Shown here: one piece after another, positions 3,210 through 28,671 of the stretch | How the letters are laid out: every line of letters starts with the position of its first letter | Numbering within the stretch: the first letter of the stretch is position 1 | Virus record (IMG/VR): IMGVR_UViG_3300039043_000094 | Span: 1-29,297 of that record | Source: a virus | Length of the DNA: 29,297 bases | Reading direction: 5' to 3' (one strand) | Notes under the pieces: model-generated | Told to the model about the DNA's origin: nothing | The model's database searches: none | What the model saw: the letters and a program-made list of their open reading frames with translations, nothing else | Position numbers and translations under genes: made by a program

Positions 3210-3212
3210 ATC

Positions 3213-8549: not shown

Positions 8550-8554
8550 ATAAG

Positions 8555-8580
8555 TATAACGTAAAAAAAACAAAATTTAC
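8555..8580 (-). promoter_or_regulatory. Putative phage late promoter (site A)
   Basis: On the minus strand this reads GTAAA, 13 bases, ACGTTATA, then 5 bases to the ATG of the gene at 8549. The same bipartite arrangement occurs at four other gene starts (11807, 13564, 20716, 22451). The spacing between the boxes fits a -35/-10 pair, and the downstream box lies so close to the ATG that transcription would begin at or beside the start codon. It begins right after the T-tract of the 8593-8610 terminator. Confidence 0.6.
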
Positions 8581-8583
8581 TAT

Positions 8584-8610
8584 AAAAAAAAAACCACCTT
8601 AGTAGGTGGT
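8584..8610 (-). terminator. Intrinsic terminator after mini-gene 8634-8825
   Basis: On the minus strand the stem ACCACCT / AGGTGGT (7 bp, loop ACTA) is followed by ten T. It lies 24 bases after the stop of the 63-residue gene and just before promoter site A, so it separates the mini-gene from the portal operon. Confidence 0.85.
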
Positions 8611-8618
8611 GTTTCTTG
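8585..8618. repeat. 34-bp direct repeat, copy 1 (terminator)
   Basis: Identical to 8897-8930 over 34 bases: nine A, then the CCACCT hairpin, then GTGTTTCTTG. Both copies carry an intrinsic terminator after a mini-gene. The flanks differ, so this is a local copy of a terminator cassette rather than a longer duplication. Confidence 0.9.
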
Positions 8619-8633
8619 ATGTTAGTTTAGAGT

Positions 8634-8825
8634 TTATCTGTCAACTTCAATGACAAGTCGGTTGTACCATAAATCAGGATCTTTTTGTGCAAGTCTTAAA
8701 GTCATAAGGTCTATTTGGCTTTCTTTTTCTTTACCTAATCTATAGATTGCTGAAATTGCTCTTTCAATGGAATTTAAGAAGGATTGCTTCTTGTTTGGAT
8801 TTGATTTTGCTATTCTTATTGTCAT
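8634..8825 (-). CDS. Hypothetical 63-residue protein (inserted mini-gene)
   Basis: Basic, helical protein, MTIRIAKSNPNKKQSFLNSI, then ERAISAIYRLGKEKESQIDL and an end near WYNRLVIEVDR. There is no membrane segment or recognised domain. It is a one-gene unit: a host-type promoter (TTTG-N20-TATATTAG) lies 20-52 bases upstream of the ATG and an intrinsic terminator lies 24 bases after the stop. It sits between the tail-tube and portal operons. The layout, like that of three other mini-genes here, resembles a phage moron. Its promoter type suggests expression independent of the late genes. Function unknown. Confidence 0.65.
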   Translation of the reverse strand: MTIRIAKSNPNKKQSFLNSIERAISAIYRLGKEKESQIDLMTLRLAQKDPDLWYNRLVIEVDR

Positions 8826-8845
8826 ATTGTTGTTTTAAATTTAAG

Positions 8846-8877
8846 CTAATATAATAAACATTTGTTAATAAAACAAA
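8846..8877 (-). promoter_or_regulatory. Host-type (Bacteroidetes) promoter of mini-gene 8634-8825
   Basis: Minus strand: TTTG (8877-8874), exactly 20 bases, then TATATTAG (8853-8846). This fits the known Bacteroidetes pattern of a TTTG -33 box and a TAnnTTTG -7 box with one mismatch. The ATG lies 20 bases further on, after an A/T-rich leader. Confidence 0.55.
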
Positions 8878-8896
8878 TAATAAAAAAAATATTTAT

Positions 8897-8922
8897 AAAA
8901 AAAAACCACCTTAGTAGGTGGT
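8897..8922 (-). terminator. Intrinsic terminator after mini-gene 8948-9091
   Basis: Same 7-bp ACCACCT / AGGTGGT stem with loop ACTA and nine T on the minus strand. It ends the transcript of the 47-residue gene, 25 bases after its stop codon. Confidence 0.85.
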
Positions 8923-8930
8923 GTTTCTTG
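8897..8930. repeat. 34-bp direct repeat, copy 2 (terminator)
   Basis: Identical to 8585-8618, including the hairpin and the GTGTTTCTTG flank. It lies just after the 47-residue mini-gene. Confidence 0.9.
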
Positions 8931-8947
8931 TTGATAAATACAAGGTA

Positions 8948-9091
8948 TTACATTTTTATACATTCAGGAAATTTTGCTATTGCTTCTTTCCAAGTTATAC
9001 TGTATGCTACCACTTCTTCAAAATTTCTAACAATACCATTATCCCAATAATGCTTTTGGGTTTTAAGGTCTTTTATTACATTTTTTTTCAT
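8948..9091 (-). CDS. Hypothetical 47-residue protein (inserted mini-gene)
   Basis: Short protein MKKNVIKDLKTQKHYWDNGI, then VRNFEEVVAYSITWKEAIAK and FPECIKM. It is soluble, with no domain I recognise. It has its own transcription unit: a -7 box TATCTTTG at 9115-9122, a 23-base A/T leader ending CTTAAAATTAATATT before the ATG, and a terminator 25 bases after the stop. The leader is nearly the same as that of the mini-gene at 13688-13891. It lies between the tail-tube terminator and another mini-gene, so two such units stand in tandem here. Function unknown; a host-takeover or moron-type role is a guess. Confidence 0.6.
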   Translation of the reverse strand: MKKNVIKDLKTQKHYWDNGIVRNFEEVVAYSITWKEAIAKFPECIKM

Positions 9092-9114
9092 AATATTAAT
9101 TTTAAGTTTATATA

Positions 9115-9122
9115 CAAAGATA
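9115..9122 (-). promoter_or_regulatory. Host-type -7 box of mini-gene 8948-9091
   Basis: TATCTTTG on the minus strand is a perfect TAnnTTTG box of Bacteroidetes. A TTTG lies only 12 bases upstream instead of about 20, so the -33 element is weak or absent. Confidence 0.45.
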
Positions 9123-9150
9123 CGAAAAATTAAACAAATGGTTTTTTGTA

Positions 9151-9179
9151 AAAAAAAGAAGGGGCAAAAATACCCCTTC
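9151..9179 (-). terminator. Intrinsic terminator after tail-tube gene
   Basis: Minus strand: GAAGGGG / CCCCTTC stem (7 bp, loop TATTTTTG) followed by seven to eight T. It is 58 bases after the stop of the tail-tube gene and closes the head/tail-tube operon. Confidence 0.85.
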
Positions 9180-9236
9180 CAAATTTAAAACTAACCTATG
9201 AAAAAATTCATACACTACAAATGTACAAATATTTTA

Positions 9237-9776
9237 TTAAGCAGGACTAATAGGTGTCGCTGAAGCTACATCTGGCTCTGTACAGAAGAATGGTGGAAAT
9301 ACTTCACTAGCTGTTACTGTCAAAGTAAATCCTTGTAAATCTCCTGCTGCACTACCTGTAACGATAGTACCACCAGTTACTTCACCACCATTATCTCTAC
9401 CTACCAACATTCTCTTAGTAGTACCTGCACCATCTGGGTACATTTCTACTACATAATGTGCTCTACCCCTTGAGAGAAGTTTTATCTCTTCTTGTGTAGC
9501 TGCATCTAAGATTTGGAATGTAAGATTTAAAGTAGTTTCATAGAACGTAGTACCATTCTCTCTTGAAGAATTGATAACTGTTTCCATAGATGAGTTACCA
9601 CCTTTTAGTTCAAATTTAAAAAACTCAGCAGAGTTATCAGTAGGTAAAGTAATTGTACCACCACTATCTCCAAGAGCTTGTATAACTGCACTATAATCTA
9701 AAATGTAAACATTCTTTATTCCTGCATATGCTGGTTTACATCCAAGATTTCTTCCTTTTGTTATTGCACAACTCAT
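9237..9776 (-). CDS. Tail tube (major tail) protein
   Basis: 179 residues from the ATG at 9776 (MSCAITKGRNLGCKPAYAGI). An upstream GTG at 9821 would place the start inside a terminator-like hairpin, so the ATG is preferred. The opening MSCAITKGR plus G-C-K is common in tail-tube proteins of Bacteroidetes siphoviruses. The body is beta-rich, with ETTLNLTFQILDAATQEEIK, SRGRAHYVVEMYPDGAG and LVGRDNGGEVTGG, then GDLQGFTLTVTASE at the end, a pattern of the tail-tube fold. It should polymerise around the tape measure. It lies directly after the capsid gene but 4.3 kb away from the tape measure. The preceding hairpin may lower its expression relative to the capsid. Confidence 0.7.
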   Translation of the reverse strand: MSCAITKGRNLGCKPAYAGIKNVYILDYSAVIQALGDSGGTITLPTDNSAEFFKFELKGGNSSMETVINSSRENGTTFYETTLNLTFQILDAATQEEIKLLSRGRAHYVVEMYPDGAGTTKRMLVGRDNGGEVTGGTIVTGSAAGDLQGFTLTVTASEVFPPFFCTEPDVASATPISPA

Positions 9777-9780
9777 ATTT

Positions 9781-9823
9781 TTAAAAATAAAAAAGGGTGA
9801 GTAGGCACTCGGCTTACCCACCC
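9781..9823 (-). terminator. Terminator-like attenuator between capsid and tail-tube genes
   Basis: Minus strand: GGGTGGGTAAGC pairs with GCCTACTCACCC (12-bp stem with one G-U and one A-C mismatch, loop CGAGT), followed by TTTTTTATTTTT. It occupies most of the 69 bases between the two coding regions and ends a few bases before the ATG. It would let only part of the transcripts pass, giving more capsid than tail-tube mRNA, or protect the upstream mRNA 3' end. Confidence 0.7.
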
Positions 9824-9845
9824 CTTTGGTTAATAATTAAGTTTA

Positions 9846-10808
9846 TTATGTAGTCGCTGTAAAGTGCTTTGCATCATCAGAGATACCAACTTGTGTACCT
9901 GCTGTGAATCTAGCAATTACTCTTACATTTTGACTTCCATCTAAGTCTGCCATATCTAATAACTTAACTTCGTTGTGGTCTGATAACAAACCAGTACCAA
10001 AGAATAAGTTAGATTTCTGTGCAACGATTGCTCTGTTGCTTGACATACCTGCACATCTCTGTACTTTTAGTCCTTCAAAAGTCAAGTTTCTTTGGAAGTT
10101 AAACCAAAGTGAACTTTGACTGTCCACACCATCAGTAGGTGCAGAGAAAGCTCCACTTGATACAGAAGAAGAGAAACCACCCAATGCTCTAACATATGAT
10201 TGATATACATTGTTAGGAATGTAAATAGTTACATCATCTTTGCCATATACAGCAGAAGGAATGTTATCTACTACTTTGCCTAAGAAAGTAACTACGTTGC
10301 TAGAAGAGATAGTTGAGCTACCTACACCAGATAGTGCAGAAGAACTTAGTCTTTGCTCAAAACCTTCAAACAAGTTGTTTCCTGAAGCAGCAGAATCATC
10401 ACCACTCCAAATGTTGTTTTCCACACTTTCTGCAATCTTACCTGCAACATAACCTAAAATATAATCAGCTAGGTTGTCTGGTAGTTTGTCATAAGCAGAG
10501 TATCCCATTTGGATAGCTTCCCAATCTGAACGGAAATCAGCTTTACATAATTGTAAGTTGACTTGTAACTCTTTTGGTTCTAAGATTGATTCTCCTAAAG
10601 TTAAAGTTGAAGTAGGATCAAAGTCACAAGTAGCATCTTTGACTACATCATCTGTGCTAAGTGTTTTTAATACTTCTTTAAATTTAACATTAGGTTTGAT
10701 TGTAATCGCACCATCATTTAGTGTTTTACCTGAAGTAAGTGCAGCAGAAATATATTGCCCTGCAAATTCACCAGAGTAAGTTGTTGTTATTGAAGTTGTT
10801 GTACTCAT
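9846..10808 (-). CDS. Major capsid protein
   Basis: 320 residues. The segment ITIKPNVKFKEVLKTLSTDD, then VVKDATCDFDPTSTLTLGES and ILEPKELQVNLQLCKADFRS, followed by DWEAIQMGYSAYDKLPDNLA, is one I recognise from major capsid proteins of uncultured marine and flavobacterial phages. Later features are IAESVENNIWSGDD, the central DDVTIYIPNNVYQSYVRALG and a C-terminal LDGSQNVRVIARFTAGTQVG. An HK97-like fold is expected. The position fits: protease, scaffold, decoration-like gene, then this one, with a 19-bp gap before it. There is no promoter motif of its own; a purine-rich AATAAAGAA precedes the ATG. Its mRNA ends in the attenuator downstream. Confidence 0.85.
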   Translation of the reverse strand: MSTTTSITTTYSGEFAGQYISAALTSGKTLNDGAITIKPNVKFKEVLKTLSTDDVVKDATCDFDPTSTLTLGESILEPKELQVNLQLCKADFRSDWEAIQMGYSAYDKLPDNLADYILGYVAGKIAESVENNIWSGDDSAASGNNLFEGFEQRLSSSALSGVGSSTISSSNVVTFLGKVVDNIPSAVYGKDDVTIYIPNNVYQSYVRALGGFSSSVSSGAFSAPTDGVDSQSSLWFNFQRNLTFEGLKVQRCAGMSSNRAIVAQKSNLFFGTGLLSDHNEVKLLDMADLDGSQNVRVIARFTAGTQVGISDDAKHFTATT

Positions 10809-10827
10809 TTCTTTATTTTATTATTTA

Positions 10828-11244
10828 TTATATTTCTCCTACAGTTAATGAAGAACTTGCGTTTCCGTTTCCAAACAAGAAATAGTTTGTACCATCACTT
10901 GAAATTTCTACGAAATCACCGATGCTTTCTGCACCATCTTCAAATGTTACTTTGTCAACAGCATCTGCTTCTACAATCGCACCATTTACAATTACACCAC
11001 CATTGAGAATATCTCTATTGTCTGATGGAGTTTGTACCACTGTGTCTGTTGAAAAAGCTGCTGATACTACAAATTTGAATTTCAAACCTGCTGAAGGTGC
11101 AGGGAGCGTAACGGTGTACCCTGTACCAGATATTAAAAATGTTTTACCACTATCAGCACCTGTTAAAGTTACGTCTGCTGTAAGTGTTTCGTATTCATCC
11201 AAGATACGAATTACATCATTAGAAAATGTTGTTGTTGTTGCCAT
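10828..11244 (-). CDS. Capsid decoration-like protein
   Basis: 138 residues, Thr/Gly/Val-rich and beta-structured. Clear segments are DEYETLTADVTLTGADSGKT, GTGYTVTLPAPSAGLKFKFV, and near the end GDFVEISSDGTNYFLFGNGN. The phrase 'T-V-T-L-P-A-P-S-A-G-L-x-F-x-F' is frequent in small phage structural proteins that bind the capsid or fibres. It lies between scaffold and major capsid genes (start ATG overlaps the scaffold stop by one base), the usual place of a head decoration protein. Assignment rests on position and composition. Confidence 0.55.
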   Translation of the reverse strand: MATTTTFSNDVIRILDEYETLTADVTLTGADSGKTFLISGTGYTVTLPAPSAGLKFKFVVSAAFSTDTVVQTPSDNRDILNGGVIVNGAIVEADAVDKVTFEDGAESIGDFVEISSDGTNYFLFGNGNASSSLTVGEI

Positions 11245-11801
11245 TATTTATTAAATAGTTTATTGAACACAATGTCTTGTGTAGTTAATGTTTTATTTTG
11301 AGAAAGAAGATTAATTTTCTTTTTAGAAACTTCTTCAGGATTATGTGCTATTGGTTCTACAGCAGCAGATAATTCTTCTTTTACTTCTTCAGACATTTTC
11401 TCTTCTTTTTTGTGGTCCATCAATTTCTTGATGTGTTCCTTTAGCTCTACAGCTAAATTGTCCATTTCTTTCTTGAGTTCATCTTTTGTAACGTACTCAA
11501 GTTTTTCCTTTTTTTCTTCTTCGTGTTCAGCAGCTTGTACTGCTTCTACTTCTTCTTGTTCTTTTACCATAATTTCATCAATTATTCCTTCTTCTATTAT
11601 TGTTAAAGTTTTACCATCTTCCATTAAATACTCTCCTACAGGTAGTGCTACTCTCTCATCTTCTGTTTTTATAAACACTTCGTTACCTTTCTCAAAAGAC
11701 TCTGCTTCTAAGATTGTTCCGTTCTCTAATTTGAGTTCTGCTAGTTTCACTTCTTCACCTAAAAGAGATTTAATTTTAGATAACATTTGACTTGCTTTCA
11801 T
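11244..11801 (-). CDS. Scaffolding-like head assembly protein
   Basis: 185 residues, very rich in Glu and Lys. The N-terminal 70 residues are a small beta domain (MKASQMLSKIKSLLGEEVKL, then LENGTILEAESFEKGNEVFI and EDERVALPVGEYLMEDGKTL) that I know from head proteins upstream of the capsid gene in Bacteroidetes phages. Residues 75-160 are a long charged coiled coil (EEEKKEKLEYVTKDELKKEM and onward). The C-terminus LTTQDIVFNKLFNK could bind the capsid protein. The charged coiled coil between protease and capsid genes fits a scaffold that the protease removes. It has its own copy of the bipartite promoter motif (site E). Confidence 0.7.
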   Translation of the reverse strand: MKASQMLSKIKSLLGEEVKLAELKLENGTILEAESFEKGNEVFIKTEDERVALPVGEYLMEDGKTLTIIEEGIIDEIMVKEQEEVEAVQAAEHEEEKKEKLEYVTKDELKKEMDNLAVELKEHIKKLMDHKKEEKMSEEVKEELSAAVEPIAHNPEEVSKKKINLLSQNKTLTTQDIVFNKLFNK

Positions 11802-11806
11802 ATAAC

Positions 11807-11833
11807 TATAACTTACTTATTAATTTATTTTAC
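11807..11833 (-). promoter_or_regulatory. Putative phage late promoter (site E, weaker)
   Basis: Minus strand: GTAAA (11833-11829), 14 bases, AAGTTATA (11814-11807), 5 bases, ATG of the scaffold gene. It differs from the other sites by C to A in the second box and by one base of spacing. It would give extra transcription of scaffold, decoration and capsid genes. It overlaps the last codons region after the small 11841-11990 gene. Confidence 0.45.
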
Positions 11834-11840
11834 ATTTTCA

Positions 11841-11990
11841 TCAGGAAGTTTTTGTAATACTCCCTATTCCTTGCGCCCACAAACTACCATCACAACACTT
11901 TATGCTATAGGTGTGTTTGTCTTTGCATAAGCATCCCCTACGACTTCCCTTAGGGCTAGACCTACTTGGTGTTTTGTATCTATGTTTCAT
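11841..11990 (-). CDS. Small cysteine-rich protein, 49 residues
   Basis: Sequence opens MKHRYKTPSRSSPKGSRRGC and continues LCKDKHTYSIKCCDGSLWAQ, ending GIGSITKTS. The basic N-terminus followed by C20-L-C22 and C32-C33 suggests a small metal-binding knuckle. The pattern K-T-P-S-R-S-x-P-K-G-S-R-R-G-C-L-C is one I know from marine Bacteroidetes phages, always as a short uncharacterised gene. Its ATG overlaps the protease stop in an ATGA, so it is translationally coupled to the head protease. A head-associated role is inferred from position only. Confidence 0.75.
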   Translation of the reverse strand: MKHRYKTPSRSSPKGSRRGCLCKDKHTYSIKCCDGSLWAQGIGSITKTS

Positions 11991-13558
11991 TTGTCGCTTT
12001 TTGGATGTCCTTTAGGTAATAAGTCATTATCACCTGTATATTTTTTGTTTTGTGGTCTGCCGTTTTTTACTAAATATAAATATGCATTTACTCTTGCAAA
12101 TGCCCATTGACTTGGACTACTAACTCTTGGAGAGTGTGATACATTGAATGCACCAAGTCCCCTTTGAAATACAGCTTTTAGTGTGCCTACGTTTACACCA
12201 TATCCTAACTTGTCTTTATATCTTTCGTTAAAATCATCAGATTTCTTTTTTAAGGTAGCTTCATCTTGTTTTGATACTTTAGCACCTCTTGACGTGGAAG
12301 CATCTCCCTTAGCTGTTCCTTTACCCTTTGGAGATGGGTTAGGTGTTCTTGATTTAGGTGCTTTGGGAGATTTCTTAATTCCACCCCTTTCTCCTACTTC
12401 TGCCATTTTAACACATTTACCATTTTTCTTTTTATAACCTTTTGGACATTTATGGTAGGATAAATCTTTACTATGGAACTCACAAGGCATATACCAAGTT
12501 TGTCCTTCAAATTCGTGTTCGTGAAAACCTTCACAACCTAAATCTTTTGCAATCTTAAGTGCCATTTCTTTAGTAGAGTATGCTAGTCTATCCATAATAA
12601 TAGCATAATCTTCATTGACTTTTACATCTGCAAGTTCTAATTGTCCAAGTTCTTTTAGCTTTGCTTCTGCATATCTTTTACCTGCTTTACCACCCCAAAG
12701 TAAATAAGATATTGTACCACACGCTTCTGTGTCGCTTTCATCATAGTACTCTTCAGCTCTTGATAAAAAGGAATACATACGTTTTATTGTGTTTTCACTT
12801 ATTGGTTTGCCTTGTGCAAGTTGTTGTGCTCGTATCTTACCTACTTCTGTAGCACATTTGTTGTTTACTTTTTTATTTAAGTCTATACCTTTTTGTGCAT
12901 TGTTCTTTACTGCATCAGGATAATCACTATAGCTTTCTAGCTCTATGACTTTACCATCTTTGGTTCTACCATCTTGTCTTACAATTCTTCTAATCATAGA
13001 TAGTAGTTCTTCTGCTTCTTCTTCTTCAAAGTCGTTTAGAGATTCTTGTGGTCTTTCCATCTTATCTACAAAGTAACCTTCTATACTAAAACCTTTTACT
13101 TTGCCTGTCTTTACATAGTCATCCCAAACTTCTTTGTTGTTTACTTTAACTACTCCCATCCAAGTACCTACAGGTACATCAAGATTGTATTTACGAGATT
13201 TATCATTTAGTTCATCTTCTACGATCCAACTCTCAACTAAAGAAAGTCCTTGTAGTTTGTGATGGTGTTCAAGTGTGCTGTTGTTCTGATTACCACTTAT
13301 AAGATACATTTCAGATGCTTTTCTTACTGTTTCTTTTGAGAAGTATATGTAGTATTCTTCTTCACCCCTTTTTCTGTATATTGGTTTGTTTGGTACAAGC
13401 AAAGCACCTATAAGTATTTGTTTATCTACTTGTGCAAGTTGTATTTCTTCTGACTTAAGTGCTACAAAATCTTCTTCTATTGCAGGATTCTCTACAATTG
13501 ATATAGCTTCTATTCCTGATATTTCGTTATCATCAAGTACAAGTTCTATAATCTTCAT
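11987..13558 (-). CDS. Head maturation protease (XkdF-like) fused to extra domains
   Basis: 523 residues with several parts. Residues 1-165 match XkdF-like serine proteases (PF14550): VENPAIEEDFVAL, LIGALLVPNKPIYRK, EHHH at 97-100 with the likely catalytic His, and GFSIEGYF at 156-163 with the likely Ser158. Residues 215-300 (KNNAQKGIDLNKKVNNKCAT and the stretch to YLLWGGKAGKRYAEAKLKEL) are a helical domain often attached to such proteases. Residues 340-385 hold four Cys and several His (C342, C359, C371, C382), possibly zinc-binding. A Pro/Ser/Lys linker follows, and residues 445-520 resemble DUF5824 (LGYGVNVGTLKAVFQRGLGA, SPSQWAFARVNAYLYL). The protease should process the capsid and scaffold; roles of the added domains are unknown. 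It is the first gene after promoter site B. Confidence 0.8.
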   Translation of the reverse strand: MKIIELVLDDNEISGIEAISIVENPAIEEDFVALKSEEIQLAQVDKQILIGALLVPNKPIYRKRGEEEYYIYFSKETVRKASEMYLISGNQNNSTLEHHHKLQGLSLVESWIVEDELNDKSRKYNLDVPVGTWMGVVKVNNKEVWDDYVKTGKVKGFSIEGYFVDKMERPQESLNDFEEEEAEELLSMIRRIVRQDGRTKDGKVIELESYSDYPDAVKNNAQKGIDLNKKVNNKCATEVGKIRAQQLAQGKPISENTIKRMYSFLSRAEEYYDESDTEACGTISYLLWGGKAGKRYAEAKLKELGQLELADVKVNEDYAIIMDRLAYSTKEMALKIAKDLGCEGFHEHEFEGQTWYMPCEFHSKDLSYHKCPKGYKKKNGKCVKMAEVGERGGIKKSPKAPKSRTPNPSPKGKGTAKGDASTSRGAKVSKQDEATLKKKSDDFNERYKDKLGYGVNVGTLKAVFQRGLGAFNVSHSPRVSSPSQWAFARVNAYLYLVKNGRPQNKKYTGDNDLLPKGHPKSDK

Positions 13559-13563
13559 AATAG

Positions 13564-13589
13564 TATAACGTATTTGTAAAAGTTTTTAC
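13564..13589 (-). promoter_or_regulatory. Putative phage late promoter (site B)
   Basis: Minus strand: GTAAA (13589-13585), 13 bases, ACGTTATA (13571-13564), 5 bases, ATG of the protease gene. Box sequences and both spacings are the same as at site A. The GTAAA begins directly after the T-tract of the 13597-13616 terminator. Confidence 0.6.
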
Positions 13590-13616
13590 AAAAAAAAACC
13601 ACCTAAGAAGGTGGTT
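13590..13616 (-). terminator. Intrinsic terminator after mini-gene 13688-13891
   Basis: Minus strand: AACCACCT / AGGTGGTT (8-bp stem, loop TCTT) followed by a run of T. The stem is a close relative of the two identical terminators near 8.6 and 8.9 kb. It lies 72 bases after the mini-gene stop and abuts promoter site B. Confidence 0.85.
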
Positions 13617-13687
13617 ATAGAATTAATAATAAACAATTATCATTTTATAAATCTAGACTGAATAAACAAGTCTTTTATTTATTTTTG

Positions 13688-13891
13688 CTATTTTATATCA
13701 GTTTCTAAATCATCTATTCTTCGCATACTAGTTACAAAAATACCCTGTTTAGCCAGTTCTTTTTTAGCATTTTGTACCGTAAAACAATTCTCTAAAGTAA
13801 TTAAAACTCTAGCCCTTTTTTTATTATCTGAACTCGGCATTACAAAGCTAACGTCAAAAGTTGTAAAAAATCTATCGTCTTGTGTTTTCAT
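13688..13891 (-). CDS. Hypothetical 67-residue protein (inserted mini-gene)
   Basis: Soluble protein MKTQDDRFFTTFDVSFVMPS, then SDNKKRARVLITLENCFTVQ and NAKKELAKQGIFVTSMRRID, ending DLETDIK. The order strand - strand - helix (NAKKELAKQG) - strand suggests a small alpha/beta fold; no family is recognised. It stands alone between the tape measure and the protease. A strong host-type promoter (TTTG-N20-TATCTTGG) lies upstream, an A/T leader ending TTTAAAATTAATATT precedes the ATG, and there is a terminator downstream. This isolates it from the late genes around it, as in a moron. Confidence 0.65.
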   Translation of the reverse strand: MKTQDDRFFTTFDVSFVMPSSDNKKRARVLITLENCFTVQNAKKELAKQGIFVTSMRRIDDLETDIK

Positions 13892-13912
13892 AATATTAAT
13901 TTTAAATTTAGA

Positions 13913-13944
13913 CCAAGATAAATAAAATATTTGATATACACAAA
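13913..13944 (-). promoter_or_regulatory. Host-type (Bacteroidetes) promoter of mini-gene 13688-13891
   Basis: Minus strand: TTTG (13944-13941), exactly 20 bases, TATCTTGG (13920-13913). This is a near-consensus -33/-7 pair of Bacteroidetes. The ATG follows 21 bases after the -7 box, so the leader would be about 15 bases and is pure A/T. Confidence 0.65.
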
Positions 13945-13979
13945 TGTTAATAACTATACGAAGGTAATTTTATTCTAAT

Positions 13980-14043
13980 AGCACTTCTCTTAATTTTAAT
14001 ATATACATACTCTAGAAAAGAGAAAGTTGCTTAAACGCTTTCT
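13980..14043 (-). terminator. Possible terminator or structured region after tape measure
   Basis: The 180 bases between the tape measure stop and the mini-gene contain imperfect inverted repeats: AGAAAG (14021-14026) with CTTTCT (14038-14043), and a longer interrupted pairing of AAGAGAAAGTTGC (about 14018-14030) with GCACTTCTCTT (13981-13991). The stems are weak and no long T-tract follows, so termination here is uncertain. Confidence 0.3.
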
Positions 14044-14071
14044 AAATGCCTTTAAAATTGATTTTGTATTT

Positions 14072-15685
14072 CTATCCTAAAGAAGCACCATCTATAATAT
14101 TTCTCTCCAAACTTTGTGCTGTGGTTACATCTTGCGATACTACAAATGCTCTAACCGGTTGTTGTTGTTGTCCAGTAATTGCTTCTGCAAGTTGATTAGT
14201 ACCCCCTGCACCTACTATGTTGAATGCAGGTGGAGCTGTGGAAACAGAAGGTGTATTTATTGAAGCAGTATTTGGTGAAGCAATACCTGATGGTGTTTTT
14301 GGATCATTTGTTGATGTAATAGCTTTTACATTAGCAAGTCCTGATGCTATTATACCAGCAGCACCAACAAATCCAAATATACCACCTTGTGCTAGTGCTT
14401 TATTAGCTCCTGCGAAAGTATCTCTAATAGCATTAGCTATAGCAATACCTTTTGCAAATTTTGAATTTTGTCCTACAAGAGCAATTGCACCATTAATACC
14501 TTGTTGTATTGCTTGTTTTTTGAAATCTTCTAATTCTTTTGTTCTTTTCTTTTCATCTTCAGCAGATTTCTTTTTAGCATCATCTATTTCTTTTAGTCTT
14601 GCTAATTCTTCTGCTTTAGCTTCATCTTCTAATCTTTTTTCTTCTGCTTTTTGTTCGTTTTTTAAAGCTATGGTTTGTGATGTAACTTCTTTTTGTTTTG
14701 TTAAACGTGCAGTTTCTAATTGTATTACTCTAGCTCTTAATTGTGCTTCTTCATCTAAATCAGCTTTTGTAGATTTACCCAAAGCATTCTCTTCTTGTTT
14801 AGCTTGTAATCTAAGTTTTGCTGCTTCTATTTCTTTATTTGTAATATCTGCTTCAATTTGTCCTGCTTCTTCCAAAAAACCTATTCTTTCTTCAATGGTA
14901 AACTTTTCTCTGTTTACAGCTTTTTCTAATGCATTTGCTCTATCTCTGTCTGCTTTAGCTCTCTGTACTAATAAATCTCTTTCTATTTTATCTGCTTCAG
15001 CTCTTTGGTCTGCTATTTCACCTGCTATCTTACCTTCCTCTACAGTTGCTTTTATAAATTCATTTGTTTTATCTATAGCTTGTTGAGTTTTATCTACAAT
15101 ATTCTCTACACCTAAAGTAACTTTAGCAGCAGCGTTTACTGCTACTTTACCTGCTTCTTTAAATTTACCTTGAAATAATAAACCAATAGCTTGTGCTAAC
15201 TTAGGTACTAATTCTAATAATCCATTGAATCTATTTATCAAGTTTTCCTTAATTAGATTAGTAAAATCTGATAATGCTTTTTGTGGATTTGTAAATAGTG
15301 AAATTAGATTCTCACCTAAATCTGCAACTGCATCTAAGAATTGTCCAGTTACAGCACCAATAACACCCATAAGTTTTGCAAACTTGTTTTGTCCTTCTTC
15401 ACTTCTAGTAAATGCTTGTCCTATAGCTGTAATGGCAATTAGTAAAGCTCCAATACCTGTAGCTGCTATCGCTACCTTTAAAGATTTAAAACCAAGTACT
15501 GCTTTCTTTACACTTTTTAAAATACCAGTAAAACCAGATATTGCACCACCTGTCATTTTATCAAGTGAATTAGTAAGTTCTCCTGTAGTTTCGTTTGTTG
15601 TTTCTACAGATTTGTTTACTTCTTTTATACTATCTACTGCTTCTTTAGAATCTGTTTCAAGTTGTATTACTATTTTTTCTGCCAT
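14072..15685 (-). CDS. Tail tape measure protein (short)
   Basis: 537 residues. An N-terminal heptad region (MAEKIVIQLETDSKEAVDSI, then KEVNKSVETTNETTGELTNS) is followed by hydrophobic helices at about 70-90 and 110-125 (LKVAIAATGIGALLIAITAI). Residues 180-390 are a long, highly charged coiled coil of Lys/Glu/Ala. The C-terminus has FAKGIAIANAIRDTFAGANK, then ALAQGGIFGFVGAAGIIASG, a hydrophobic pattern typical of the end of tape measure proteins in Bacteroidetes phages. At about 0.15 nm per residue the tail would be near 80 nm (inference). It is preceded by tail genes but followed by head genes, an unusual place. Confidence 0.75.
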   Translation of the reverse strand: MAEKIVIQLETDSKEAVDSIKEVNKSVETTNETTGELTNSLDKMTGGAISGFTGILKSVKKAVLGFKSLKVAIAATGIGALLIAITAIGQAFTRSEEGQNKFAKLMGVIGAVTGQFLDAVADLGENLISLFTNPQKALSDFTNLIKENLINRFNGLLELVPKLAQAIGLLFQGKFKEAGKVAVNAAAKVTLGVENIVDKTQQAIDKTNEFIKATVEEGKIAGEIADQRAEADKIERDLLVQRAKADRDRANALEKAVNREKFTIEERIGFLEEAGQIEADITNKEIEAAKLRLQAKQEENALGKSTKADLDEEAQLRARVIQLETARLTKQKEVTSQTIALKNEQKAEEKRLEDEAKAEELARLKEIDDAKKKSAEDEKKRTKELEDFKKQAIQQGINGAIALVGQNSKFAKGIAIANAIRDTFAGANKALAQGGIFGFVGAAGIIASGLANVKAITSTNDPKTPSGIASPNTASINTPSVSTAPPAFNIVGAGGTNQLAEAITGQQQQPVRAFVVSQDVTTAQSLERNIIDGASLG

Positions 15686-15816
15686 CTCAATTCTTTTTTA
15701 ATCTTTCTACCTGCACCCATTAGTCCTTTAGGTAAGTGATATTTACCTTGTGCTATACGAATGTTTTCCGTTTCACCATTTGCTAGTTTTAGTAAATCTA
15801 AAATGTTTTGTATCAT
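15670..15816 (-). CDS. Hypothetical 48-residue basic protein
   Basis: Opens MIQNILDLLKLANGETENIR and continues IAQGKYHLPKGLMGAGRKIK, ending KELRWQKK. The N-terminal half is helical and the C-terminal third strongly basic. The ATG overlaps the stop of the upstream tail gene in an ATGA, and the 3' end runs 16 bp into the tape measure gene, so it fills the gap exactly as a coupled gene would. A small protein at this place could be a tail assembly factor; nothing in the sequence proves it. Confidence 0.65.
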   Translation of the reverse strand: MIQNILDLLKLANGETENIRIAQGKYHLPKGLMGAGRKIKKELRWQKK

Positions 15817-17855: not shown

Positions 17856-19030
17856 TATCTGATTGTGTTAATCTTATCAAAAGCATAATCAAATTCTATT
17901 GTGTATTGTACCAGTCTATCATTTAAAGTTGTCTTGTAAGTTACATTGCTTGTTTTTGGTATGATAGGTAGTACAAGTTCTCTGTCTGTAAGTTTTGTAA
18001 GAAATACTTGCTCTGATAACAAAAGTTGTTTTATCACTTCTTCATAGTCATCAGATAAATAACCAGTATTAAGTGTAATGCTTTCTTTTCCTAATTTATC
18101 ATATTGTGATACTTGTGGTTTGCTAACGACATATGAAGGAGTTTCTGTAGTAAAATCAACAAGATTAGATTTAAAAGTTTGTCCAGTAGTATTTAAGCTC
18201 TCTGTAGATTTCAAGCTAAAGTGCAAATCTTGTAAAGCACCAAACTTATTTACAAATGTAACTTTTATTGGAGTGTATTTTGTTTCTGGTTCTGTTTTTA
18301 TCTTTATGACTTCTGTACCATTTTCTGAATTGACATACAACTCATCTACAAGTCCATCATCTATATCACAAAGAAAATCATCAAGTAAAGTATTATCTTC
18401 TAATGTACCACCATCAGCTAGTACCCTTTCTCTATAGTTGTCTGTGTTATCACTACCTGATACTGTTATGTAATCTATTTGTGCATTTGTGTTTGTAGAA
18501 GTAGATACTGATTGTGTTCTTTTTACTGTGCCTTCAAATAAAAATGTTACAGAATCTGTTATGCCTGTATATACTGGTACTCTTACATTCTCATCATTTA
18601 GTCTAAATATAACTTGATTGGATTGTAAAGATCCTGTGTCTATTGTCTTTGCATTTGTAGGATTTGCACCATCTTCATAATATCCATATCCATCAAAAGC
18701 TACAAAACCATTTGTATTGTCAGGTTTGACAGTTGCTGTAGCAGAACCACTTGAAACTGTAGTACTAATAATAGCGTTTACCCAAACCACTTGACTATCA
18801 TAAGTACCATTGAATGTAATGTCTAAATAATCTCTTATAAGCTCTGCTACTTCAAAAACTATATATCCTGATGTAACTACACTTTTGGTTATTGTATATT
18901 TAGGATTCGCTACAGAAGCATTCGCTACAAATGTACCTGTGTATATATAAAGGTTGAGTGTAGCAGTTGCAATATTTGTTTGTGCTACTTTTAAATAAAA
19001 AGGACTTCTTACGTTTATCTTAGTTGCCAA
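17855..19030 (-). CDS. Tail protein, possibly distal-tail-like
   Basis: 391 residues, beta-rich. It begins MATKINVRSPFYLKVAQTNI, which I recognise from a conserved structural protein of marine Bacteroidetes phages, then has ATLNLYIYTGT and VFEVAELIRDYLDITFNG. The C-terminal part has YTPIKVTFVNKFGALQDLHF, SLKSTESLNTTGQTFKSNLV and VFLTKLTDRELVLPIIPKTS, then YTIEFDYAFDKINTIR. The start codon is TTG at 19030, inside the last codons of the preceding gene; there is no alternative ATG that keeps the conserved N-terminus. Order (terminator, gp10-like, this gene, the 680-residue protein, tape measure) supports a tail role. Confidence 0.55.
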   Translation of the reverse strand: MATKINVRSPFYLKVAQTNIATATLNLYIYTGTFVANASVANPKYTITKSVVTSGYIVFEVAELIRDYLDITFNGTYDSQVVWVNAIISTTVSSGSATATVKPDNTNGFVAFDGYGYYEDGANPTNAKTIDTGSLQSNQVIFRLNDENVRVPVYTGITDSVTFLFEGTVKRTQSVSTSTNTNAQIDYITVSGSDNTDNYRERVLADGGTLEDNTLLDDFLCDIDDGLVDELYVNSENGTEVIKIKTEPETKYTPIKVTFVNKFGALQDLHFSLKSTESLNTTGQTFKSNLVDFTTETPSYVVSKPQVSQYDKLGKESITLNTGYLSDDYEEVIKQLLLSEQVFLTKLTDRELVLPIIPKTSNVTYKTTLNDRLVQYTIEFDYAFDKINTIR

Positions 19031-19526
19031 TTGTACTACTTCTTAAAAATTCTTCTAAATCTAATCTATATGCTTTTACCATATCTTCTGGTAATTTATC
19101 AAATGCTTGTTTAAAACTCTTAGTAAAGAAGTTACTAGGTTTTATACCTTTATTGTATATGCTTCTTGCTAACAAGTATTGTAAACTCTTACGTTTTATA
19201 AATCTACCTTGTGCATCTCTTGTACCTTTTATGTTTCTTCTTACCATCCACTTATCAAGAGCTTTGGGTGGTGGCATTTTATCTTTGTAACTAAATGGTG
19301 TATTGTATTTACGTTTCTTACCACTTACACCCCTGTCTTGATATATACCATATTCTTCCATAAAGAAGTTTAGTATAAATGCAACAGCAGAAGTTGTAAG
19401 GTCATATCTCAAACTATTATACAAATCTTTACTAGCGTTTTTCTTACCTTTTGTAAGTCGTGTTCTGGATTGTTGTATTACACGCTTTGCAAATTTGTTT
19501 AATATTTCTTCAGTATTGTTCAACAT
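19020..19526 (-). CDS. Tail completion / head-tail joining protein, gp10-like
   Basis: 168 basic residues. Early helix MLNNTEEILNKFAKRVIQQS is followed by ARTRLTKGKKNASKDLYNSL-type sequence. A central block EEYGIYQDRGVSGKKRKYNT with PFSYKDKMPPPKALDKWMVR follows, and then LARSIYNKGIKPSNFFTKSF. The 'Y-G-x-Y-x-D-R-G' to 'I-x-x-x-G-I-x-P-(S)-x-F-F' layout is that of HK97 gp10-like tail completion proteins, and the length fits. It sits between the tail terminator-like and tail genes with 6-11 bp overlaps. It probably joins tail and head or caps the tube. Confidence 0.65.
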   Translation of the reverse strand: MLNNTEEILNKFAKRVIQQSRTRLTKGKKNASKDLYNSLRYDLTTSAVAFILNFFMEEYGIYQDRGVSGKKRKYNTPFSYKDKMPPPKALDKWMVRRNIKGTRDAQGRFIKRKSLQYLLARSIYNKGIKPSNFFTKSFKQAFDKLPEDMVKAYRLDLEEFLRSSTIGN

Positions 19527-19990
19527 AAGTACAAGTCGTTGTGTATTGTTAAATCAAATGTAGATGCCCAACCACCAAGTTGGTTTTCAAATCTATCATA
19601 AAAAGGTTCACAGCTTGGTGTACCTAACAATTGATATTTGTCAAAGTATGGTGTGCCTTGTCTTAGCAATCCAAACAATCTATTCTGTACAGCTAGTTGT
19701 GTGTTCAGTACATCTTGTTCATTGTTGTTTCCTACAAATATGTCTGTTACTTCGCTTTTGCTCAAATCTATAATATCCATAGAAAGTATTGTAATGTTGA
19801 ATGTAAGTATTTGCTCTGCTATTGTAACATTGTTTATTATGATATGTGTCAAAGGGAATATGGTTTGTTTAGATAAATCTATTTCTGTCAAATCACCTGT
19901 GGTTACTGTGTTTACATTCTCATCTAACAAGAGTGTATCTTTAAGTGTTTGTGTTACTAAGTAATATGCTCTTACACCTTGATTAGCCAT
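19520..19990 (-). CDS. Tail terminator-like protein
   Basis: 156 residues of mixed alpha/beta. It begins MANQGVRAYYLVTQTLKDTL, then has a strand pattern FPLTHIIINNVTIAEQILTF and NITILSMDIIDLSK. A helix LNTQLAVQNRLFGLLRQG follows, and the C-terminal strand reads NQLGGWASTFDLTIHNDLYL. The pattern helix - strand - strand - helix (with N-R-L/T in the helix) - strand fits gpU/terminator-like proteins that stop tail growth. It overlaps the chaperone frame-B gene by 8 bp and the gp10-like gene by 7 bp. The terminator call is from fold pattern and neighbours. Confidence 0.55.
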   Translation of the reverse strand: MANQGVRAYYLVTQTLKDTLLLDENVNTVTTGDLTEIDLSKQTIFPLTHIIINNVTIAEQILTFNITILSMDIIDLSKSEVTDIFVGNNNEQDVLNTQLAVQNRLFGLLRQGTPYFDKYQLLGTPSCEPFYDRFENQLGGWASTFDLTIHNDLYLC

Positions 19991-20210
19991 TTCTTCTAAT
20001 TCTTTTTGTTTCTATTTCGTTTTTCTCTTTCATAAATTCTAAAGCATATAGACATTCGTGTACGTTTAATTTAGTGATATCTTTAAATCGTGTAATATCT
20101 CCGTTAGCGAGTCCAAATACTGATTGATACCAACCCCATTTTTGTCCAAAGGTTGCAACTCTTGAAAGGTTATCCCCTGTCTGTGTGTAGAGTGAATCAT
20201 AACTTGACAT
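19983..20210 (-). CDS. Tail assembly chaperone, frameshift extension (GT-like)
   Basis: 75 residues if read from its own ATG (MSSYDSLYTQTGDNLSRVAT). Its frame is reached from the upstream chaperone gene by a -1 shift at a run of nine T (20230-20238). The shifted frame is open from there through this ATG, so a 242-residue fusion (160 + 82) is expected. The extension has KWGWYQSVFGLANGDITRFK and NVHECLYALEFMKEKNEIE, a helical chaperone-like tail that I associate with this family. GGGAAGGAG just before the ATG might allow internal start as well. The pair corresponds to gpG/gpGT of lambda, which load tail tube on the tape measure. Confidence 0.65.
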   Translation of the reverse strand: MSSYDSLYTQTGDNLSRVATFGQKWGWYQSVFGLANGDITRFKDITKLNVHECLYALEFMKEKNEIETKRIRRNG

Positions 20211-20710
20211 AACTCCTTCCCTAAATTGTAAAAAAAAAGTATAGAACTCATAACTACGGATAACGGCATTTCCTTGTATTTAAGAGCGTTTCTCGGCTCG
20301 TATGGTACTATATTATATTTATCAGAATATCTGCTCTGTATCGGTCTGTAAAGCACAGCCATTGCTTTCTCTATGTTATCCCAATCACCTAAAAACGTAT
20401 CTATGTCTATATATTCACCAAAAGTCATCTCATCAAGATTGGGTATAAATCCATATTCTTTTTTACCAAGTTTGAATCTTTGTATAAGTGTAGGTGATTC
20501 TTTAAACATCAAAGAAATCTTTTCTACGATCCTACTTACATCTGATGCTTTGATATATCTTGCTACTTTGTCTGATACATTACAAAAGATTGAAATCATC
20601 TTAAGTGCAAGTTGATTGTCTGATAAATCTTCAGGTAGCTTTAAGTACTCTTGGTATTGTCCTAAAGTTATATCGCTTAATGATGTAGGTACTCTCAATT
20701 CATACTTCAT
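20066..20710 (-). CDS. Tail assembly chaperone (G-like)
   Basis: 214 residues, helical. It begins MKYELRVPTSLSDITLGQYQ, then EYLKLPEDLSDNQLALKMIS and IFCNVSDKVARYIKASDVSR. A block KLGKKEYGFIPNLDEMTFGE, YIDIDTFLGDWDNIEKAMAV and LYRPI follows. This layout (a 'ITLGQYQEYL' start, then F-I-P-x-L-D-x-M-T-x-G-E-Y-I-D) is one I know from tail chaperone genes of Bacteroidetes siphoviruses. Two products are expected: this one and the -1 frameshift fusion that shares residues 1-160. It opens the tail operon after promoter site C. It is 4.4 kb from the tape measure rather than next to it. Confidence 0.65.
   Translation of the reverse strand: MKYELRVPTSLSDITLGQYQEYLKLPEDLSDNQLALKMISIFCNVSDKVARYIKASDVSRIVEKISLMFKESPTLIQRFKLGKKEYGFIPNLDEMTFGEYIDIDTFLGDWDNIEKAMAVLYRPIQSRYSDKYNIVPYEPRNALKYKEMPLSVVMSSILFFYNLGKELCQVMIHSTHRQGITFQELQPLDKNGVGINQYLDSLTEILHDLKISLN
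20229..20239 (-). other. Probable -1 programmed frameshift site
   Basis: Minus strand reads C-T9-A. In the chaperone frame this is CTT TTT TTT TAC, which contains the canonical slippery heptamer T TTT TTT. A -1 shift gives TTA CAA TTT AGG GAA and stays open into the overlapping ORF down to 19983. Position, direction (-1) and gene family all agree with tail chaperone frameshifting. Confidence 0.7.
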
Positions 20711-20715
20711 AATAA

Positions 20716-20742
20716 TATAACGTATAAATCAAATGTTTTTAG
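20716..20742 (-). promoter_or_regulatory. Putative phage late promoter (site C)
   Basis: Minus strand: CTAAA(A) (20742-20737), about 13-14 bases, ACGTTATA (20723-20716), 5 bases, ATG of the chaperone gene. It begins a few bases after the T-tract of the 20753-20768 terminator, the same arrangement as at sites A and B. Confidence 0.6.
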
Positions 20743-20745
20743 AAA

Positions 20746-20768
20746 CAAAAAATCCTACCGAAGTAGGA
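20746..20768 (-). terminator. Intrinsic terminator after mini-gene 20783-20905
   Basis: Minus strand: TCCTAC / GTAGGA stem (6 bp) with a TTCG tetraloop, followed by TTTTTTG. The stem starts 14 bases after the mini-gene stop codon and separates it from the tail operon. Confidence 0.85.
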
Positions 20769-20782
20769 CTTTAAGTTGATAC

Positions 20783-20905
20783 TTATTTTATCTTGAGAAA
20801 ATCTCTCTTGATTACTTGTTCGTATTCTTTACTAAAAACAAAATCAAAGTATTCTTTTTTAGTAATTGCATTCCCTGTCAAAGGGTGTACATAGTTTTTT
20901 TCCAT
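20783..20905 (-). CDS. Hypothetical 40-residue protein (inserted mini-gene)
   Basis: Reads MEKNYVHPLTGNAITKKEYF, then DFVFSKEYEQVIKRDFLKIK. It is soluble, charged and probably helical at the C-terminus; not recognised. It follows terminase by 50 bases. The A/T leader CTTTAAAATTAATTAAT before the ATG matches the leader of two other mini-genes, and a -7-like TATATTTA lies 23 bases before the ATG. A terminator follows. It is the fourth one-gene unit placed between virion operons. Confidence 0.6.
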   Translation of the reverse strand: MEKNYVHPLTGNAITKKEYFDFVFSKEYEQVIKRDFLKIK

Positions 20906-20928
20906 ATTAATTAATTTTAAAGTTCAAG

Positions 20929-20936
20929 TAAATATA
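20929..20936 (-). promoter_or_regulatory. Host-type -7-like box of mini-gene 20783-20905
   Basis: TATATTTA on the minus strand resembles TAnnTTTG with one mismatch, at the same distance from the ATG as at the other mini-genes. No TTTG lies about 20 bases upstream, so this is a weak call supported mainly by the shared leader. Confidence 0.3.
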
Positions 20937-22444: not shown

Positions 22445-22450
22445 TATAAG

Positions 22451-24925: not shown

Positions 24926-25020
24926 TTTTTAAATTTTTTATATATTCTGTAAAAGCTGTAACCAACATAACCTAATATCAACAAGGCAAAACATATTGGA
25001 CAAGGGTGTATAACTATCAT
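24922..25020 (-). CDS. 32-residue membrane microprotein with CPxC
   Basis: Reads MIVIHPCPICFALLILGYVG, then YSFYRIYKKFKK. One hydrophobic helix (about residues 9-25) follows a CPIC motif and ends with a basic patch, so an N-out or inner-membrane microprotein is likely. It is coupled on both sides by ATGA overlaps: its ATG overlaps the sigma factor stop and its TGA overlaps the next ATG. This double coupling is the main reason to accept so short a gene. Role unknown; an envelope-directed host-takeover factor is one possibility. Confidence 0.55.
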   Translation of the reverse strand: MIVIHPCPICFALLILGYVGYSFYRIYKKFKK

Positions 25021-28625: not shown

Positions 28626-28671
28626 AATTATAAATTTTCCTAAAGTTATAAAAAAAAATTAATTATGAGTT

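Follow-up and report, generated by a model that had tools for sequence, protein, structure and literature searches.

Organization of the locus

The window, that is, the whole 29,297-nt stretch of viral DNA analyzed here, carries four mini-genes named mA, mB, mC1 and mC2 (40, 67, 47 and 63 aa). All are ORFs on the minus strand between virion operons, where they had been predicted (Table 1). A hairpin with a T-run lies 3' of every one of them, so that each has its own terminator, and three abut an exact copy of the late motif, ACGTTATA-N5-ATG, as had also been claimed. The genes behind these copies are gA1 (slot A), the protease gene prot (slot B) and gC1 (slot C). Terminator-like sites were more frequent between 6000 and 23000 on both strands (15) than in shuffled sequences (4.9 +/- 2.4). 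The GC content of the mini-genes (0.27-0.32) differs little from that of flanking genes (0.29-0.37), and the ranges overlap.

Host-type promoters had been assigned to the mini-genes as well. The -7 boxes read TATCTTTG at mC1 (exact), TATCTTGG at mB, TATATTAG at mC2 and TATATTTA at mA, with leaders of 16-19 nt predicted downstream. TTTG stands exactly 20 nt upstream at two of them, as claimed, namely mB and mC2, and not at mA and mC1. In the window alone such promoters are near chance (12 minus-strand sites scoring 9/10, against a Markov mean of 6.2 and a maximum of 11 in 20 simulations), and the case for them comes from relatives. There, a score of at least 8/10 was found upstream of 48 of the 67 first cargo ORFs, compared with a shuffle mean of 20.1 and a maximum of 31; control genes also exceeded their own shuffle means (mcp, 19/60; portal, 12/60; g15813, 12/45). 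A scan for E. coli-type promoters, a consensus that is not informative for this phylum, found 44 against 78.2 expected.

Table 1. Positions of mini-genes, cassette parts and late-promoter features in the window
Feature	Position	Strand	Basis
Mini-gene mA, 40 aa, slot A cargo	20783..20905	-	ORF
Mini-gene mB, 67 aa, slot B cargo	13688..13891	-	ORF
Mini-gene mC1, 47 aa, first cargo of slot C	8948..9091	-	ORF
Mini-gene mC2, 63 aa, second cargo of slot C	8634..8825	-	ORF
-7 box of mA, TATATTTA, without TTTG at N20	20929..20936	-	
Slot B promoter-leader shell, TTTG-N20-TATCTTGG, predicted leader 17 nt	13892..13956	-	
-7 box of mC1, TATCTTTG, exact	9115..9122	-	
-7 box of mC2, TATATTAG, with TTTG at N20	8846..8853	-	
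Terminator of mA	20749..20772	-	hairpin + T-run scan
Terminator of mB	13597..13616	-	hairpin + T-run scan
Terminator of mC1	8905..8922	-	hairpin + T-run scan
Terminator of mC2	8593..8610	-	hairpin + T-run scan
Resident terminator of capsid operon (gC0 end), upstream joint of slot C	9157..9180	-	
Resident late promoter A, ACGTTATA-N5-ATG of gA1	20708..20723	-	
Resident late promoter B, protease gene	13556..13571	-	
Resident late promoter C, gC1	8547..8562	-	
Fourth late promoter, one mismatch, g11244 start	11799..11814	-	
ECF-like sigma factor, proposed reader of late promoters	25017..25514	-	
Slot D, empty in window; inverted 24-aa cassette in G001, G003, G005	28660..28670	.	

Slot occupancy in related phages

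The same slots were compared among relatives, as the original prediction had proposed, and variable or missing cargo in a retained shell was found. With an empty slot defined as a gap under 150 nt and counts made over distinct sequences, cargo is missing in 34/91 sequences at slot A, 84/87 at slot B and 79/108 at slot C, so the mini-genes are not conserved in all relatives. Slot C was counted from the last gC0 copy, as a second gC0-like gene (36 ORFs) otherwise inflates the figure. Sister phages are 95-98% identical over the aligned virion region, yet they differ sharply at the slots, and slot C takes six states among seven records. The cassette genes separate pairs of genes that lie side by side in relatives, as morons do; together with the terminators at all four mini-genes, this supports the predicted likeness to morons. 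Some slot-A fillings are small operons rather than single genes, and convincing cargo is absent from several of the 29 "filled" C slots (e.g., L013 and L028).

Among 14 virion borders screened, gaps at least 100 nt above the 10th percentile were frequent at A (58/91), C (26/108), B (3/87) and prot-g11244 (48/97), each of which precedes a late-motif gene; the remaining ten borders had 0-3 such gaps each, except g17855-g15813 (7/49). The prot-g11244 border was set aside as a fourth slot, 87 of its ORFs being one resident gene family. The notion of fixed insertion slots thus holds well for A and moderately for C, and for B only locally, because filled B slots are confined to the species of the window (3/87 distinct sequences; L007, also filled, was left uncounted because its contig lacks the upstream gene).

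The cassette had been described as ending in a phage-type promoter. Its terminator does abut the late promoter, but the promoter belongs to the slot rather than to the cassette, because it is still present when the slot is empty (among the sequences listed, about every third distinct one). In L006, for example, where slot C is empty, the terminator of the capsid operon is joined directly to the late promoter. A terminator lies right before the late promoter in 52/57 filled A slots and 3/3 filled B slots, and the gaps of empty A and B slots (~30 nt) are too short for one. This would suit cassettes that are mainly insulators, separating early from late transcription with the ORF as a space filler. 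Such a role is very unlikely to explain them, since the 84 empty B and 34 empty A sequences have no insulator, the capsid operon before slot C already carries its own terminator in 76/79 unfilled slots, and the ORFs are under purifying selection, as described below.

Exchange and selection of cargo

That the regulatory shell is conserved while the cargo varies was confirmed at slot B, where three unrelated ORFs (67, 98 and 133 aa) sit within a promoter-leader identical at 61-64 of 65 nt. Here mB is replaced by the 98-aa ORF in L006 and L008 and by the 133-aa ORF in L007, with the shell unchanged. The mC1 promoter precedes a 125-aa ORF instead in L007, and the mA terminator is a different hairpin in L087. 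The terminators of mC1 and mC2 have ACCACCT-ACTA-AGGTGGT in common, and that of mB has the same stem. In slot C the mC1 terminator is joined to the mC2 promoter, which by its sequence forms a composite of promoter and stem-loop at a gene border, as do the shells in B and D.

Homologues of mA occupy slot A in L087, L088 and L089, with more distant ones in L253-L255, and an all-against-all comparison of 348 ORFs (E <= 1e-4) gave mB a weak homologue in slot A of L094. The sole slot-C cargo of L052 is mC1, which has a 63% homologue in slot C of L021; mC2 is also found in slot C of L009 and L166. In a diverged phage, two of the slot-C cargoes are found again, there in slot A. For mC2, the slot-A counterpart in L253-L255 is 89% identical; this cross-slot copy matches at 178/192 nt (dS 0.21), against a pS of 0.76 (saturated) for the flanking terL and a gA1 dS of 1.5. 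The slot-C cargo of L008, whose promoter and start are lost, matches slot A of L253 at 256/273 nt, terminator included. Sister phages have a fifth cassette in their early region, outside the virion region and in inverted orientation (slot D), which carries parts of the slot-B leader as well as the terminator; a 29-nt stretch containing the mB terminator recurs without change at the slot-D terminator of G001 and is also present in G003.

In most comparisons, substitution patterns point to purifying selection on the cargo frames. Mean pN/pS was 0.11-0.58 in all 11 clusters tested, and dN/dS was 0.23-0.28 for mC2 and mC1; for mA against L088, where changes are few, pN/pS exceeded 1. These data bear on the idea that the slots are passive indel hot spots, formed by T-rich or hairpin-driven recombination or slippage, whose ORFs are transient junk without function. 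The degraded L008 cargo, the mA-L088 ratio and the slot-D ORF of just 24 aa are in its favor. We regard it as unlikely given the selection on cargo, the retention of promoter, start, frame and terminator as a set, and the persistence of an 89% identical protein in a lineage with saturated core genes. The elements might also be small regulatory RNAs with incidental ORFs, as very short units with their own promoter and terminator, one of only 24 codons, would allow; the synonymous bias in most cargo comparisons and the presence of ORFs of 98-133 aa in the same shells make this extremely improbable.

When 67 cargo proteins were compared with Pfam, PHROGs and PADLOC, the matches listed included a methyltransferase, a PAPS-reductase-like protein and DUF7249, and otherwise weak or nameless families. 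Neither megablast of the region nor tblastn of the four mini-proteins (E <= 0.1) found a match in 50,697 phage records. No mC2 was found when 299 genomes from one host family were searched without a positive control.

Late promoter and sigma factor

The phage-type promoter of the original prediction is CGTTATA. Its TATA lies at -9 of the ATG in 283/328 distinct upstream sequences of four genes (gA1, 66/71; prot, 63/78; g11244, 72/84; gC1, 82/95), counts that include related sequences. With one mismatch allowed, five matches were found in the window, among them that of g11244 (start 11801); the shuffle mean was 0.71 and 0/100 shuffles reached five. A second conserved block, rich in A, lies around -28, and the motif is confined to operon-first genes. 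Within a genome, the tetramers at -13..-10 agree at 3.21 of 4 positions (shuffle mean 1.89, maximum 2.14). The spacing varies at the gene at 22444, where the motif lies 6 nt from the ATG, and 3 nt at the same site in G001, instead of 5, and at the portal gene, where TATA is at -9 in 20/77 and at -11 in 49/77. The geometry predicts leaderless virion mRNAs, and the late promoter probably makes mRNA of this kind.

The probable reader of CGTTATA is an ECF-like sigma factor encoded by the phage. Sigma70_r2 was detected in the window protein at E 0.0027, which is below the Pfam cut-off, and in 9/10 homologues at E <= 0.05, with region 4 in 1/10. The protein has a two-domain fold whose top PDB matches are ECF sigma factors, and it combines regions 2 and 4 without region 3, as ECF factors do. 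DLxR(K/R) is present in the sigma factor of 22/22 CGT records versus 1/9 others (13/13 versus 1/9 for distinct segments). The late motif co-varies between sites within a genome and also with the residues that occupy the region-2.4 position of the sigma factor. If CGTTATA were instead a translation-start or operator element, it would carry no information on a phage sigma factor or on leaderless mRNA. A translational signal would also sit at a fixed distance from the ATG, and the portal spacing speaks for such an element; its restriction to operon-first genes, the A-rich block and both kinds of co-variation leave this alternative with little probability.

Proposed model and significance

We consider it likely that the mini-genes are mobile, moron-like promoter-ORF-terminator cassettes in slots upstream of sigma-read late promoters. 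The sequences themselves show the units, their appearance and disappearance, their exchange, the common shells and the purifying selection, as well as the motif geometry and the sigma-motif pairing. Each unit has a small ORF behind a putative host-sigma promoter and a leader of 16-19 nt, and it ends in a hairpin-T-tract terminator. The intergenic slots lie where one virion operon has ended and the next is about to begin, at the upstream edge of its late promoter. Units come and go, form chains and are traded between slots and phages; most of the joints observed are in the T-runs that follow terminators, in the promoter-leader that cassettes have in common or at a start codon, and recombination presumably proceeds by annealing of short shared sequence. 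The cargo is presumed to be made early by host RNA polymerase and may act on the host. The cassette terminator may keep early transcription out of the virion operon that follows, and the late promoter resident in the slot, with an A-rich -35-like block, CGTTATA as -10 and the start codon 5 nt on, would let that operon be expressed whatever lies upstream.

A plug-in late program, to which we give an even chance, would go further. An ECF-type sigma factor would start virion operons at the A of the AUG; since this is the first transcribed base, the mRNA would be leaderless and the operon independent of upstream sequence. The upstream edge of the promoter would therefore be a neutral socket for self-terminated mini-genes with host promoters, which would be inserted, chained and swapped through the leader and terminator sequences they have in common; the same would hold for a slot in the early region, and for insertion in inverted orientation.

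No prior account of the late promoters or cassettes of this phage group was found in literature searches. Because many related phages can be compared at one set of defined sites, the gain, loss and transfer of accessory genes become countable. The slots provide an address for seeking small early genes, e.g., for host take-over or anti-defense, that family libraries miss. The late promoter and sigma factor also yield a testable prediction, namely leaderless virion mRNAs where host genes rarely use them.

Comparison with known systems

Morons were reportedly described in lambdoid and other phages by Juhala et al. in 2000 and by Hendrix. Their definition comes from temperate phages, in which the prophage often expresses them. 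Like the cassettes, morons are extra genes between genes adjacent in relatives, have their own terminator, and are present or absent by strain; they also have their own promoter, as is predicted for the cassettes. A further mark of morons is a base composition unlike that of their neighbors; the GC ranges given above overlap. Unlike morons, the units found here have predicted promoters of the Bacteroidota type, chain, exchange cargo within a single shell and turn up again in other slots. No lysogen is known, and a scan of 40 proteins of the window detected no integrase; this marine flavobacterial phage is probably virulent, and its lifestyle presumably lytic.

PeSL (promoter early stem-loop) cassettes of T4-type phages, as outlined in passages of PMC4503421 citing Arbiol 2010 and Comeau 2014, place an early promoter and a stem-loop at gene borders, as the sequence suggests here, and are tied to gene shuffling between related phages. 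The present cassettes, by contrast, occur in a genome of ~29 kb, where most of them lie between virion operons on the upstream edge of a late promoter, and have predicted host -7 box promoters. Nor is there kinship with T4: the portal matches phage records only from Nonlabens phages (Inhavirus) of ~35.7 kb, P12024S and P12024L being the nearest (39%). These also encode a sigma-70 region 2 protein (gp33), just 23% identical to the window's sigma factor, and have a small opposite-strand gene (gp04) in slot C; unlike here, there is no TATA at -9 before gA1 or prot.

The window's sigma factor has its two-domain fold in common with sigma-H, sigma-L and sigma-E; unlike them, it is phage-encoded, its region 2 scores below the Pfam cut-off, and no anti-sigma factor was identified. 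Leaderless mRNAs are known from Thermus phages, where they begin at the start codon, as predicted here for the first genes of virion operons. A passage of PMC5312081 describes phage transcripts as often leaderless. Leaderless host mRNAs are rare in this phylum, at 5.5% in F. psychrophilum according to a passage of PMC9723704.

The phage and its relatives

The window has recognisable genes for portal, terminase, protease and tail, and the phage records matching its portal (39%) were the Nonlabens phages P12024S and P12024L, whose host is a marine flavobacterium. Relatives in IMG/VR number in the hundreds; searches gave 384, 292 and at least 598 matches, and the best 80 of each were used. Where long stretches of the virion region align, eight sister-phage records (G001-G008) were about 95-98% identical to the window, with more divergence in the tail-gene area than elsewhere; G006 was 100% identical across 15.7 kb. 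Because G001 continues across both window ends (window 3-3291, then 28670-29297), the window probably represents an almost complete genome in circularly permuted form. Among the 40 window proteins scanned, a subset of the window's ORFs, there was no integrase.

Slots, their contents and other features of the window
Feature	Record	Position in window	Content
Slot A, before gA1	window, G006	20783-20905 (-)	mA, 40 aa
Slot A	G001		50-aa variant
Slot A	G005		mA and 52-aa ORF, new terminator
Slot A	G007		long PAPS-reductase-like ORF and mA
Slot B, before protease gene	window, G006	13688-13891 (-)	mB, 67 aa
Slot B	G001, G003		98-aa ORF
Slot B	G002		133-aa ORF
Slot C, before gC1	window	8948-9091, 8634-8825 (-)	mC1, 47 aa, and mC2, 63 aa
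Slot C	G001 (L006)		empty
Slot C	G002 (L007)		125-aa ORF
Slot C	G003 (L008)		ORF truncated at 5' end
Slot C	G004 (L009)		mC2 (contig ends inside slot)
Slot C	G005 (L052)		mC1
Slot C	G008 (L166)		mC2
Slot D, early region	window	28660-28670	empty
Protease-g11244 gap	window	11801-11987	49-aa ORF of resident family; extra 128-aa ORF in G005
Proposed sigma factor	window	25017-25514	divergent, ECF-like, 165 aa; conserved in group
Exonuclease-VIII-like protein	window	23026-23790	candidate recombination helper
Tail proteins	window	3291-5600	swapped out between sister phages
Methyltransferase	window	26144-26797	swapped out between sister phages
Thioredoxin-domain protein	window	939-1349	adjoins lysis genes
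289-codon open frame	window	14217-15086 (+)	antisense to gene gB0; probably a side effect of codon usage

Mini-genes and putative host-type promoters

The original prediction described four mini-genes, each with a host-type promoter and its own terminator. Their coordinates and lengths were correct, and a hairpin with T-tract was found at all four. A TAnnTTTG-like box precedes each, implying predicted leaders of 16-19 nt, but it is exact for mC1 only; the TTTG 20 bases upstream, claimed for two, is present for mB and mC2 only. As the minus strand carries 12 high-scoring host-promoter sites where 6.2 were expected and the highest of 20 simulations gave 11, the window alone does not prove these promoters. 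Among relatives, 48 of 67 first cargo ORFs were preceded by a score of at least 8/10, whereas shuffled sequences gave 20.1 on average and 31 at most; the test is diluted because some slot-C "first ORFs" are spurious. Four of seven control gene sets fell below their shuffle means and three above (capsid gene mcp 19/60, portal 12/60, g15813 12/45); the mcp count compares with 3.75 in shuffles. According to PMC6847099 and PMC9723704, the Flavobacterium -7 box lies at -12 to -5 and leaders have a mean of 33 nt in F. johnsoniae and a median of 24 in F. psychrophilum, values with which the cassette register and leader lengths are consistent.

The cargo ORFs appear to evolve as genes: dN/dS was 0.23 for mC2 (window vs L253) and 0.28 for mC1 (vs L021), and mean pN/pS was 0.11-0.58 in all 11 cargo clusters tested. 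Against this trend, mA gave 1.38 versus L088, from about nine changes. Among 67 cargo proteins scanned, one DNA methyltransferase and one PAPS-reductase-like protein were recognised; the four window mini-proteins had no useful match, mC1 alone hitting phrog_6285 (E 0.0048). Phages often swap genes for host take-over and counter-defence. Since this is so, and a part in the virion would be hard to square with absence from sister phages, we favour small early proteins of these kinds as the putative cargo.

Variable cargo at fixed slots

As anticipated, cargo at the same slot varies or is absent among relatives, while the shell of slot B is retained. Slot C was readable in seven records, the window included. 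In slot B, promoter and leader are identical at 61-64 of 65 nt between records with different cargo, and the late promoter is likewise retained; the 67-, 98- and 133-aa ORFs align with one another no better than shuffled sequence. Slot D of G001, G003 and G005 holds an inverted cassette, its 24-aa ORF being read from the other strand, and the leader of this cassette is partly common to that of slot B. A 29-nt stretch including the terminator is identical between mB and slot D of G001; the slot D terminator of G003 is the same, and that of G005 differs in the loop.

At each of 14 virion-region borders we counted the distinct sequences whose gap exceeded the 10th percentile by 100 nt or more. 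Such gaps occurred in 58/91 (A), 3/87 (B), 26/108 (C) and 48/97 (protease-g11244), compared with 3/93, 1/91, 1/69, 7/49, 3/54, 0/22, 0/22, 0/108, 0/99 and 0/101 at the other ten. By frequency, slot B is thus no busier than these ten, with cargo in the window's species alone, and the protease-g11244 border differs in kind because a resident gene fills it. The genes downstream of these four borders are the four with the late motif. A terminator lay within the last 130 nt of 52/57 filled and 7/34 unfilled A slots and of 3/3 and 0/84 B slots, a partly trivial contrast since a gap of 30 nt is too short for a terminator; in slot C (22/29 and 76/79) it is reversed because the capsid operon has its own terminator.

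Slot C joints lie mostly in the T-run behind a terminator: that of the capsid operon is joined to either cassette or directly to the late promoter, and cassette terminators are followed either by another cassette or by the late promoter. Only L008 departs from this pattern, its truncated cargo joining within an mC1-type promoter. In slot A of clade L093-L106, small ORFs are gained or absent at overlapping stop-start joints. Recombination via short shared sequence, perhaps helped by the exonuclease-VIII-like protein, would create the cassette joints.

Cargo also occurs in different slots. In L253-L255, which share 54-59% (terL) and 50% (gA1) amino acid identity with the window, slot A carries three cargoes in an array: an mC2 homologue, an extended version of the L008 slot-C cargo and an mA homologue. 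Between the window and L253, mC2 is identical at 178/192 nt (dS 0.21), while terL is synonymously saturated (pS 0.76) and gA1 has a dS of 1.5. The L008 cargo and terminator match the slot A version at 256/273 nt. A third, weaker case links mB with an ORF in slot A of L094.

Probable late promoter and a candidate sigma factor

The three predicted late motifs, ACGTTATA-N5-ATG, are present at 20708, 13556 and 8547. Counted over distinct upstream sequences, a TATA placed precisely at -9 relative to the ATG occurs in 66/71 (gA1), 63/78 (protease), 72/84 (g11244) and 82/95 (gC1); nine other genes gave 0-15% and portal gave 26%. Of the 77 distinct sequences at the portal start of relatives, 49 have TATA at -11. 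The motif includes an A-rich block at about -28, and the three bases before TATA vary by lineage (CGT, TTA, CGA, CTA and others). Within genomes the sites agree at 3.21 of 4 positions, against a shuffle mean of 1.89 and maximum of 2.14 (276 site pairs from 102 loci, related loci not being independent). Among the sequences listed, the motif is retained in empty slots, indicating that it belongs to the slot.

The 5-nt TATA-ATG spacing is fixed at gene starts 20710, 13558, 11801 and 8549. If the -10 element occupies -12 to -6, its position in the host, transcription would start at the A of AUG, and the virion mRNAs are predicted to be leaderless. A fifth ACGTTATA copy (22444-22459), before the gene upstream of terL, counts against a strict rule: its spacing from the ATG is 6 nt in the window and 3 nt in G001, which has a methyltransferase-like ORF inserted at precisely this site.

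The proposed sigma factor has a weak match to Sigma70_r2 (E 0.0027, which does not reach the curated cut-off), and nine of ten homologues match this domain; P12024S gp33 is annotated as a Sigma70_r2 protein. For an AlphaFold2 model from 45 sequences (pLDDT 86, pTM 0.47), the top PDB matches include ECF sigma factors, with a best E of 5.7e-4 and TM about 0.4-0.5 overall and 0.73 by target for region 4. In the 31 records that carry the gene together with a TATA at -9 (L249, lacking such a site, was excluded), DLxR[K/R] occupies what we take, from sigma factors in general, to be the region-2.4 position in 22/22 CGT records and 1/9 others (CGA class), or 13/13 versus 1/9 by distinct segment. The late -10 element and the residues at the presumed region-2.4 position vary together.

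Comparison with known systems

In sum, the reading of these units as moron-like cassettes stands, limited at slot B to the window's species; the late promoter, originally placed in the cassette, is better assigned to the slot. A proposed phage sigma factor and leaderless mRNA are added to that reading. Leaderless mRNAs are known from Thermus phages. The definition of morons includes position, an own promoter, a terminator and a prophage criterion; the cassettes work alike, with the position and terminators of morons and promoters recognised in sequence only. Leaderless transcripts make up 5.5% of host mRNAs in F. psychrophilum, according to PMC9723704. The units also work like the PeSL cassettes of T4 phages, as cited in PMC4503421, but are not members of the T4 system.
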